From the NCBI RefSeq assembly GCF_000380985.1, contig NZ_KB905694.1:124001-188000 (forward strand): a stretch of 64,000 bases of DNA, in the 5' to 3' direction. Numbering within the stretch: position 1 is the stretch's first letter; every line of letters begins with the position of its first letter. A program made the translations under genes and the position numbers. This DNA is from Proteiniphilum acetatigenes DSM 18083. Lineage in GTDB: Bacteria; Bacteroidota; Bacteroidia; Bacteroidales; Dysgonomonadaceae. The notes beneath the pieces were generated by a model. The model was not told the DNA's origin and searched no databases. It saw only the letters and a list, made by a program, of their open reading frames with translations. Positions 61,563 through 64,000 of the stretch are shown piece after piece.

Positions 61563-62267
61563 ATGAAAGTTGTAATGAGAGTGCTTTTAGCAGTAGCCAT
61601 TATTCTTTTGGCTTATGTTAGCTGGAGAAGTATCCAAGGACAGGTTGATTTTGATGCAGAAGTAGCAAAACGTGACAAGGCAGTTATCCAGCGCCTGGTG
61701 GATATCCGTACAGCGCAAGTCGCTTTACGTGCTCAGTCCGGATCTTACACAGCCAGTTTTGACACACTGATCCAGTTCGTAAAAGATGGAAGAATTGCTA
61801 CCGTAGTAAAAGCAGGAGATCTCACTGAAGCTCAGTTGGAAGCAGGTATGACAGAGGTAAAAGCCATGCAGATCATCAATTCAGGGAACGAAAAAGCCAT
61901 TAGGGATGCTGGTCTTTGGGATGAAACAAAGAATGCTCCTCAATTGGTAAGAGACTCTATCTATTCCCCGGCCGTTCAGGTTTTGTATCCGAATCGTCGC
62001 AATTTTATCCCTGATTCTCTGGCATTCGTACCTTATGGAAACGGAGCTAAATTCGAAATGGGAGTCGATTCACTGATCACCGCATCGGGTTACCCCATCC
62101 AGGTATTCGAAGCAAAAACTCACTACTCAGTTTATTTAGGAGATCTCGACAAGAGATTAGTGGATCAGAAAATCCAGGAAGTACTCGATCGTCCGGGTAA
62201 CAGATATCCCGGCTTGCAGGTGGGTTCGCTTGAAATGGCTAACAATAACGCCGGTAACTGGGAATAA
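61563..62267 (+). CDS. Single-helix membrane protein with pseudopilin-like layout, function unknown
   Basis: 234 residues. One N-terminal membrane helix (about 4-21) that runs on into an amphipathic helix (QVDFDAEVAKRDKAVIQRL), followed by a segment (DIRTAQVALRAQSGSYTASFDTLIQFV) whose pattern recalls pseudopilins and major pilins after their helix. The prepilin cleavage glycine and the E5 residue are absent, so it is not a standard pilin. The rest is beta-rich. I know no named family; similar proteins occur in Bacteroidetes next to DUF3822 and rsmD, as here. Likely first gene of that operon. Confidence 0.72.
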   Translation: MKVVMRVLLAVAIILLAYVSWRSIQGQVDFDAEVAKRDKAVIQRLVDIRTAQVALRAQSGSYTASFDTLIQFVKDGRIATVVKAGDLTEAQLEAGMTEVKAMQIINSGNEKAIRDAGLWDETKNAPQLVRDSIYSPAVQVLYPNRRNFIPDSLAFVPYGNGAKFEMGVDSLITASGYPIQVFEAKTHYSVYLGDLDKRLVDQKIQEVLDRPGNRYPGLQVGSLEMANNNAGNWE

Positions 62268-62287
62268 CAGTTTCCCTATATCACAGT

Positions 62288-63103
62288 ATGTTCTTACCTG
62301 AAAATATTGATCTGGCATATTCGGAAAGATACAATTTATCCATTCGGCTGTCGCCGAATGGATTTTCTTTTTGTATTTATTGTCCGGGTGACCCGTCTAT
62401 TTTTCATTTTCAGGAAACCGGACTAAGTGGTAAACTCTCCTATATAGACAACATCAAAAAACTGATTTTTGACCTTGGTTTTTTTAGTCAGACATTCAAT
62501 CAGGTAACAGTTACTGTCGTTTCTCCTTTTTATACGCTTGTTCCCGAAGCTTATTTTGAAAAGAAGCGGATTGAAGAGTTGTTCCGGTTCAATTTTCATG
62601 AAACGAACGGTGTTATTCTTACAGATAGTCCTCTGGAAAATGATCTCCGGACTCTTTTCAATGTAGATGAAGAGGTACATTCATTCCTTTCACGGAATTT
62701 ATGGAATCCTACATTCCACCACCACTCTTCTATTCTTACCCGTCTGTTCATATCTCATAGAGGTGATGAAACCGGAAAGTGTTGCTTCGCCGATTTTCAC
62801 GACAAATATGTCACCATAGTTTGTTTCTCAGGAAACCGGCTGCTCTCTACAAATACGTTTCTGGCAACCGATCCTCATGACACTACTTATTTTATCGCAA
62901 GCGTGTGGGAAAAACTCACTTTCGACCAGTCTACAGACAGGCTTTTTCTTTCCGGCGATATCGATTCCCAAAGAGCGACGATAGACCTGCTCAAAAAACT
63001 GATCCGATGGGTGGAGCAAATGGAATTGAGTCCGAAAGTGATATTGACAGAAGAGCAAAAAAGAATGCTTCCCACTGATATATTGGCTGCCTTATGCGTA
63101 TAA
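62288..63103 (+). CDS. DUF3822 family protein
   Basis: 271 residues, cytoplasmic. The pattern LAYSERYNLSIRLSPNGFSFCIY, PFYTLVPEAYFEKKRIEELFRFNF, RLFISHRGDETGKCCFADFHDKYVTIVCF and DRLFLSGDID matches DUF3822, a Bacteroidetes family with the actin-like (ASKHA) two-lobe layout; the function is unknown. It lies 20 bases after the preceding gene and overlaps rsmD by 10 bases, so it is translationally coupled to the methyltransferase, a link conserved in the phylum that hints at a ribosome-related role. Confidence 0.88.
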   Translation: MFLPENIDLAYSERYNLSIRLSPNGFSFCIYCPGDPSIFHFQETGLSGKLSYIDNIKKLIFDLGFFSQTFNQVTVTVVSPFYTLVPEAYFEKKRIEELFRFNFHETNGVILTDSPLENDLRTLFNVDEEVHSFLSRNLWNPTFHHHSSILTRLFISHRGDETGKCCFADFHDKYVTIVCFSGNRLLSTNTFLATDPHDTTYFIASVWEKLTFDQSTDRLFLSGDIDSQRATIDLLKKLIRWVEQMELSPKVILTEEQKRMLPTDILAALCV

Positions 63104-63627
63104 TCGGAGGAAAATACAAATCCAGACGTATTCAGGTTCCACCAAATCTGAAAGCCCGTCCTACGACTGATTTTGCCAAAGAAGGGCTTTTTAATGTCCT
63201 CAATAATCTTTTGGATTGGGAAGAAATAACCGCCTTAGATCTTTTTTCCGGAACAGGAAGTATTGCTTTTGAGTTGATTTCAAGAGGATGTACCTATGTA
63301 GTGAGCGTGGAACAGAATCAAAACCATTTTAATTTTATATACCGGGCACAGGAAAAACTCGAAGCAAAGGAATTGTTTCCTGTAAAAGCGGATGTGTTTA
63401 AATATCTGCAATCTCTGAAACAACAATTCGATTTTATTTTTGCCGACCCTCCTTATGACCTTCCCGACCTGGAAAAAATCCCCGAAATCATCCTCAATAA
63501 ACAATTGGTCAAAGAGGGAGGATTCTTTGTCATGGAACACTCCAAAAACCATCACTTCTCACACCTCCCGCATTTCAAAGAAGAGCGGAAGTACGGGAAT
63601 GTGCATTTTTCCTTTTTTGAATTTTAG
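63094..63627 (+). CDS. rsmD: 16S rRNA (guanine966-N2)-methyltransferase
   Basis: 177 residues, full length. RIIGGKYKSRRIQVPPN at the start, LKARPTTDFAKEGLFNVL, cofactor loop ALDLFSGTGSIAFELISRG and the catalytic FIFADPPYDLP (N6/N2-methylase DPPY motif) are diagnostic of RsmD. The enzyme modifies assembled 30S subunits. Last gene of the operon starting at 61563; 200 bases separate it from mgtE. Confidence 0.95.
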   Translation: MRIIGGKYKSRRIQVPPNLKARPTTDFAKEGLFNVLNNLLDWEEITALDLFSGTGSIAFELISRGCTYVVSVEQNQNHFNFIYRAQEKLEAKELFPVKADVFKYLQSLKQQFDFIFADPPYDLPDLEKIPEIILNKQLVKEGGFFVMEHSKNHHFSHLPHFKEERKYGNVHFSFFEF

Positions 63628-63695: not shown

Positions 63696-63703
63696 TATAT
63701 TTG
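63696..63703 (+). promoter_or_regulatory. -7 promoter element of the mgtE transcript
   Basis: TATATTTG, a clean fit to TAnnTTTG. Transcription would start near 63710, about 20 bases before the leader reading frame and 108 bases before mgtE. Confidence 0.6.
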
Positions 63704-63728
63704 CCACAGTAAAGTAACAAATTGTCAA

Positions 63729-63779
63729 ATGGACGAAGATTCCCGAAAATATAATAACAGTAATATCTTTGACCTGTAA
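63729..63779 (+). CDS. Candidate leader peptide upstream of mgtE
   Basis: ATG to TAA, 16 residues: MDEDSRKYNNSNIFDL. Three acidic residues directly follow the start Met. It begins about 20 bases after the predicted transcription start and its stop overlaps the base of a small GGG-AATA-CCC hairpin that competes with the hairpin over the mgtE Shine-Dalgarno. No Shine-Dalgarno of its own is apparent, which is common in Bacteroidetes. Not in frame with mgtE. No database family is known to me; the peptide is proposed from position and sequence only. Confidence 0.5.
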   Translation: MDEDSRKYNNSNIFDL

Positions 63780-63788
63780 GGGAATACC

Positions 63789-63814
63789 CTCCTTTCAGGC
63801 AAAGCAGAAAGGAG
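63789..63814 (+). promoter_or_regulatory. Hairpin sequestering the mgtE ribosome-binding site
   Basis: CTCCTTTC (63789-63796) pairs perfectly with GAAAGGAG (63807-63814), which is the Shine-Dalgarno of mgtE; 10-base loop. A shorter stem AGGG/CCCT (63779-63782 with 63787-63790) shares two bases with it, so the two cannot both be complete. Confidence 0.6.
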
Positions 63815-63817
63815 AGT

Positions 63818-64000
63818 ATGATGACAGATACCCGAATCAATTTTCAGAGACTCATAAAAGAGAGGGCATGGACTACCCTGAAAACGGAACTCACTAAACT
63901 GGATGTTCCCGATATCACTTACCTTATTGAGCATAGTAACCAGCTCCACTCTATTATCTTATTCCGGCTGCTTCCAGGAGAAGAAGCAAAAGAGGTCTTC
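63818..64000 (+). CDS. mgtE: MgtE-type magnesium transporter (5' end only)
   Basis: The first 61 codons; the gene runs off the window. The N-terminal cytoplasmic MgtE_N domain is recognisable: LKTELTKLDVPDITYLIEHS followed by IILFRLLPGEEAKEVF, the helical superhelix that senses magnesium and gates the channel. Two adjacent ATGs (63818 and 63821) follow AAAGGAG. Only the regulatory domain is seen, so the CBS and membrane domains cannot be confirmed. The leader contains a short acidic reading frame and a ribosome-site hairpin. Confidence 0.8.
   Translation, partial: MMTDTRINFQRLIKERAWTTLKTELTKLDVPDITYLIEHSNQLHSIILFRLLPGEEAKEVF

Follow-up and report, generated by a model that had tools for sequence, protein, structure and literature searches.

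A conserved short-peptide leader upstream of mgtE in Proteiniphilum acetatigenes: a candidate Mg2+-responsive translational attenuator of transporter genes in Bacteroidota

The window analysed here, a stretch of 64,000 nucleotides from Proteiniphilum acetatigenes DSM 18083, ends within a gene for a putative Mg2+ importer, and the gene order at this locus is rsmD - leader - mgtE. Whilst rsmD (PF03602) occupies positions 63094-63627, upstream of a promoter box, mgtE is identified by its match to TIGR00400 (394 bits) and by MgtE_N, CBS and MgtE domains; the mgtE of Proteiniphilum sp. X52 shows 94% identity to it. On the 5' side of rsmD the window holds two further genes (61563-63103), one for a 234-aa protein with no Pfam match and one for a DUF3822 protein. 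The leader and its surroundings comprise the following features:

63696..63703, + strand: promoter -7 box TATATTTG (Bacteroidota pattern TAnnTTTG), from sequence and conservation of the box in relatives
63729..63779, + strand: leader peptide frame MDEDSRKYNNSNIFDL, 16 codons (ATG 63729-63731, TAA 63777-63779), from conservation of the acidic start, codon periodicity and a pinned stop
63739..63744, + strand: segment 1, AUUCCC within codons 4-6, pairing with GGGAAU at 63780-63785 (stem 1:2, a helper of the OFF state)
63767..63783, + strand: segment 2 (CUUUGACCUGUAAGGGA), the leader's final codons, stop and next bases, pairing with segment 3; from covariation
63790..63804, + strand: segment 3 (UCCUUUCAGGCAAAG), the pivot, with either segment 2 or segment 4 as partner; from covariation and folding
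63807..63814, + strand: segment 4 (GAAAGGAG), the mgtE Shine-Dalgarno (SD) sequence, sequestered by segment 3; from covariation and folding
63784..63819, + strand: sequestering hairpin 3:4, which takes in the first mgtE ATG; from folding
63821..64000, + strand: mgtE, running past the window end (L002:1819-3162), with its start at 63818 or, more likely, 63821

The second ATG (63821) is favoured as the mgtE start because two relatives (L040, L051) have that ATG only. An initial annotation of this DNA had proposed a promoter at 63696, a 16-codon acidic frame 20-25 bases beyond it and a hairpin burying the mgtE SD. The TATATTTG box is indeed present at that position, and 40 of 44 related elements have a promoter box 5' of their frame, as against 2.0 in shuffles, conservation that argues against transcription starting inside the frame, a possibility that the annotation had itself raised. 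The frame is there as described, although its distance from the end of the box is 26 nt. The hairpin also proved to be present (63784-63819, -14.8 kcal/mol, covering GGAG and the first mgtE ATG) and is kept across many families; the folding z-score for 63775-63835 is -2.9.

A conserved acidic-start frame in relatives had been named beforehand as the check on this reading, and such frames were found widely, in many families. The same short frame recurs upstream of mgtE in the same family and in named genomes (MDEDPRKYHYSNILDL, MDDDPYPNNFKYQQLL, MDEDPYPSYRNKTKVLTSL, MDEGPYHSCNINKY, MEEDPYRSYSREKETMC and others), with one MAG each of Azobacteroides and Tannerellaceae among them. The leaders range from 10 to 21 codons and share the consensus M-[DENK]-[DE]-x-P: codon 2 encodes Asp or Glu in 37 of 44 elements (Asn or Lys in the remainder), GAN (Asp/Glu) fills codon 3 in all 44, and 40 have CCN as codon 5, each of the four possible third bases being used at both of the latter positions; Pro5 and Tyr6 are common. 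The stop codon lies between -11 and +12 nt from the start of segment 2 in every aligned element (n=43), falling into two main classes at about -7 and +4, and in both of these a terminating ribosome would cover segment 2. In the control frames the first stop lies near segment 2 (-12 to +9) in only 35% (+1) and 17% (+2) of cases. Codon periodicity and the pinned stop indicate that the leader frame is selected as a reading frame. In the window's own clade Ser has replaced the Pro5 that is retained by nearly every other member, no Pro is left anywhere in the leader, and this leader may therefore be a weaker sensor; L040, the sister of this clade, keeps Pro5.

The wider distribution of the element was analysed with covariance models, the E-values of which are rough. 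Model R1 was built from 17 mgtE leaders of relatives and reached no further than the first few mgtE bases; across 393 Bacteroidales genomes it matched 34, and its matches beyond mgtE lay directly 5' of corA (PF01544) and of mgtA (TIGR01524), the corA leaders each carrying a frame of their own (e.g. MDEGPYHSRINY). A refined model, R2, matched 37 of the same 393 genomes at E<=5e-4 (27 family codes), all directly 5' of a Mg2+-transport gene: mgtE in 20 cases, corA in 15, mgtA in one and a PRC-MgtE_N-CBS gene with an adjacent Nramp gene in one. The unbiased statement is the R1 result, since R2 was trained partly on loci that R1 had found. A 1.2-Mb genome of 99% completeness (G190) is among those matched. 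At weaker E-values the element was also seen before a second mgtA (L186/L195) and a further corA (L180); model matches at E >=9e-4 are for the most part false and lie inside genes. Beyond Bacteroidales, one genus yielded the element, in two genomes and each time ahead of a PRC-MgtE_N-CBS gene (L141, L142), which in the first of the two is followed by an Nramp gene (L193). Since corA, mgtA and an Nramp operon are also preceded by the element, its tie to Mg2+ transport does not depend on mgtE.

Not every candidate from these searches was retained. One class-level match (L144) was judged false, and another (L143) is not a leader, being the N-terminus of a CorC/CNNM-type protein; this protein (GldE-like, by eye) begins MDDDPYPS, which is the start of the leader consensus and is perhaps fused or coincidental. 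A single member precedes an exporter: in genome G036 an acidic leader MNDDPYPSYSSVKTKTSTLL stands before a CzcB/CusB-like RND metal-efflux operon (L137/L197). The same genome also has an mgtE with leader.

Most Bacteroidales mgtE genes have no such leader, mgtE being present in 171 of the 393 genomes, and mgtE loci lacking the element occur even within the same genus (L033, L034, L045-L047). Two corA genes are also encoded in the genome to which the window belongs, and neither was matched by the models. In one genus (L041, L043, L049) inspection by eye suggests that the acidic frame has been lost and the SD hairpin has decayed, leaving the SD unhidden, with segments 2 and 3 partly remaining. 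Leader-like MDEGEY frames that overlap mgtE starts in further members of the family (L008-L029) were not counted as this element: they enter the mgtE coding sequence in another reading frame and are part of a separate conserved leader. The mgtE of these loci is about 41% identical and has its own conserved leader, AGTTCATCCCAAAAAC...GTTTTTGTATT, in which TTCATCC can pair with GGATGAA over the mgtE start; the members scanned gave no Rfam match, and this leader is possibly another start-sequestering switch. Near one of these mgtE loci (L022:2097-2301) lies a cobalamin riboswitch (RF00174, 98.7 bits).

The four segments of the element can form rival helices: 1:2 together with 3:4, in which the SD is hidden, versus 2:3, which leaves the SD free. 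In a typical element segment 1 lies in codons 3-5, segment 2 (TCTGTAAGGG) at or just past the stop, followed by segment 3 (CTCCTTACAGA) and segment 4 (GTAAGGAG), the latter being the SD. Competing stems next to the stop had been anticipated by the initial annotation: they exist, covary and adjoin the stop, but segment 2 (63767-63783), a pivot overlapping the last codons and the stop, had been missed. For helix 3:4, 92% of cells are paired and two-sided changes occur at 8 of 9 pairs, with 28 two-sided cells compared to 8.1 after shuffling (0/500 shuffles); for helix 2:3 the values are 85% of cells paired, two-sided changes at 7 of 10 pairs and 39 two-sided cells versus 15.4 (0/500), all of which are figures that should not be read as probabilities because the shuffles ignore relatedness. 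Sliding controls were far lower for both helices. Segments 2, 3 and 4 change together, with segment 3 common to the mutually exclusive helices 2:3 and 3:4. In case of helix 1:2, native duplexes of segment 1 with the bases that follow segment 2 reach -10.4 kcal/mol compared to -8.3 kcal/mol when permuted (0/10000 permutations, relatedness again being ignored).

In the window, helix 2:3 comprises 15 bp (-16.2 kcal/mol) in a transcript ending before segment 4. For such transcripts a ribosome at codon 5 gives 8.6 expected 2:3 pairs, free RNA 7.5 and a ribosome at the stop 0.1, this last value being so low because the footprint covers segment 2. Equilibrium folding of the full leader gave a different picture: most members favour the OFF hairpin 3:4 whether or not an early ribosome is present, and the switch would therefore have to act co-transcriptionally or kinetically. 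Mean SD access at equilibrium is 0.18 with an early ribosome, 0.08 for free RNA and 0.06 with a ribosome at the stop, the early ribosome giving higher access than free RNA in 39 of 44 members and higher access than the ribosome at the stop in 35 of 44; in the window's own clade the effect is about nil. Folding of the full leader with ribosome footprints was dropped as primary proof, the direction being right in most members and the size small.

We consider it likely, with good confidence, that the element would be best explained as a Mg2+-responsive translational attenuator placed before transporter genes. The mRNA would begin just past the promoter box, at about 63709-63711 in the window, and a ribosome would start on the short acidic leader. 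With ample Mg2+, this ribosome would finish the leader and terminate on segment 2 or immediately 5' of it, masking that segment, such that segment 3 would pair with segment 4, the transporter SD, and import would be off. At low Mg2+, the nascent chain, which is acidic and usually of the acidic-x-Pro type, would cause ribosome pausing or drop-off by the fifth codon at the latest: this would open segment 1, allowing the free segment 2 to pair with segment 3, releasing the SD and permitting synthesis of the transporter. Were the leader left untranslated, stem 1:2 together with 3:4 would hold the transporter off. The placement of the stop codon would let a finishing ribosome block helix 2:3, whilst a ribosome that halts on the acidic codons, or leaves the mRNA there, would let 2:3 form first. 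That low Mg2+ is the ON condition is suggested by the downstream genes being importers and by the enterobacterial precedents. Speaking against this reading are the Ser5 of the window clade, the one member that stands before an efflux operon, the lack of the leader at most mgtE genes and the equilibrium preference for the OFF hairpin. The magnesium-sensing leader-peptide interpretation given in the initial annotation has, then, the support that sequence can give.

Rival helices that covary, together with the participation of leader codons in stem 1:2, could also be expected if the RNA itself sensed Mg2+, in the manner of the M-box or of the structural model of mgtA, and the frame were incidental. 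We regard this as quite improbable: the codon periodicity, the fixed Met-acidic-acidic start, the open frame and a stop pinned to segment 2 in 43 of 43 aligned elements all speak against an incidental frame, no Rfam family matches and a large conserved folded core is absent. It is likewise improbable that the leader is an amino-acid attenuator or a general sensor of translation stress (Pro/Tyr codons, EttA or EF-P activity) that acts on transporters incidentally. Such a role would suit the frequent Pro5 and Tyr6, the EttA encoded in the window's genome and the precedent of mgtP, the Salmonella mgtCBR leader frame that responds to charged tRNA-Pro (PMC8092293); however, the downstream genes are nearly always Mg2+-transport rather than amino-acid genes, the leaders contain no more than one or two Pro codons, and the leader of the window clade manages with none. 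That a stray short frame and a hairpin reflect ordinary translational coupling or chance, with no sensing at all, is barely credible for an arrangement kept in 27 families, before four unrelated transporter types and with covarying rival stems, even though short frames are common and a sigma-70 promoter scan shows no excess here, the sigma-70 pattern being unsuited to this phylum.

Returning to the Mg2+-responsive attenuator, it seems fairly probable that Bacteroidota possess a Mg2+-sensing leader class of their own, probably independent of MgtL, MgtQ and CorL, in the form of a portable cassette (promoter, acidic-Pro mini-frame and four-segment SD switch) that precedes genes of four or more unrelated families of Mg2+ transporter. 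If this is true, ribosome stability on acidic nascent chains would be a general gauge of intracellular Mg2+ across phyla: sensing of Mg2+ by ribosome destabilisation is documented in enterobacteria, and the Bacteroidales element would show that a distant phylum, too, uses the ribosome to sense Mg2+. For annotation, the element represents an uncatalogued family of cis-regulatory elements in roughly a tenth of the sampled Bacteroidales genomes and gives a way to assign a Mg2+ import function to transporters, whilst its leader peptides form a natural set for testing which nascent chains unsettle the ribosome.

An Rfam scan at gathering and relaxed thresholds returned nothing relevant, with no M-box (RF00380) even at E<=5. 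In Firmicutes, Mg2+ transporter genes, mgtE among them, are under the control of the M-box (ykoK), which differs from the present element in having a metal-binding RNA core and no leader peptide. A literature search covering sources outside subscription journals found no paper on such a leader in Bacteroidota. Attenuators of the trp type share the four-segment logic with a leader peptide, in which a stalled or a finished ribosome picks the helix, but here the output would be SD access and not an intrinsic terminator, and there is no run of one amino acid. Only 4 of 44 elements carry a U-run behind the OFF hairpin (>=4 T in the 10 nt that follow the stem), and the window has none. In one corA leader (L176), seven T follow the 3:4 hairpin, resembling by eye an intrinsic terminator right before the ATG.

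Leaders with acidic and Pro residues are established sensors of Mg2+ through ribosome destabilisation (PMC11282234; PMC8092293; PMC11552253). In MgtL, the mgtA leader of Escherichia and Salmonella (MEPDP...), poor leader translation at low Mg2+ turns mgtA on through an effect on Rho-dependent termination (PMC11282234, PMC11552253). The parallel to MgtL drawn in the initial annotation holds in principle, since both have an acidic-Pro start, a downstream Mg2+ transporter and rival RNA folds, but it is not the closest match: MgtL operates through Rho-dependent transcription termination, whereas here a hairpin hides the SD and rut logic is unneeded, and instead of the Pro-acidic alternation of an MEPDP-type start we find M-[DENK]-[DE]-x-P, alike in kind and different in sequence. 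For CorL, the uORF in the corA leader of Escherichia and Salmonella, efficient translation lowers corA expression (PMC11552253); it too precedes corA, but is Rho-dependent, has fewer acidic and Pro residues and belongs to another phylum with another sequence.

The nearest known system is Salmonella mgtQ, which is translational and SD-sequestering, rather than the Rho-dependent MgtL. This 8-aa uORF lies between mgtC and mgtB and requires Asp2 and Glu5; its stems 1:2 and 3:4 oppose 2:3, with the RBS of the Mg2+ transporter gene mgtB in 3:4, as has been shown experimentally (PMC8092293). Common to both are a short acidic frame (Asp2, Pro4 and Glu5 in mgtQ), a Pro codon inside stem region 1, the same stem topology, a transporter RBS hidden in 3:4, an output that is translational in mgtQ and predicted to be so here, and a Mg2+ importer downstream; the energies are also similar, with reported values of -16.4 kcal/mol for 2:3 and -12.3 kcal/mol for 3:4 in mgtQ (PMC8092293) against -16.2 and -14.8 kcal/mol in the window. 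The systems differ in setting: mgtQ, reported from Enterobacterales, lies between two genes of a single operon, whereas the Bacteroidota element forms a 5' leader behind a promoter of its own, serves mgtE, corA, mgtA and Nramp operons, encodes a peptide of the form M-D-E-x-P-Y and has its stop on or just before segment 2. The locus, rsmD - leader - mgtE, is accordingly not orthologous to the mgtC-mgtB interval, although the acidic uORF start, the opposition of 1:2 and 3:4 to 2:3 with the RBS in 3:4, and the Mg2+ transporter downstream are those of the mgtQ-type class, a class in which the ribosome is destabilised at acidic codons and this is countered by bL31. Judged from its sequence, then, the element is a real, conserved regulatory leader, probably representing an mgtQ-like class of translational attenuator in Bacteroidota that is attached to four types of Mg2+ transporter.
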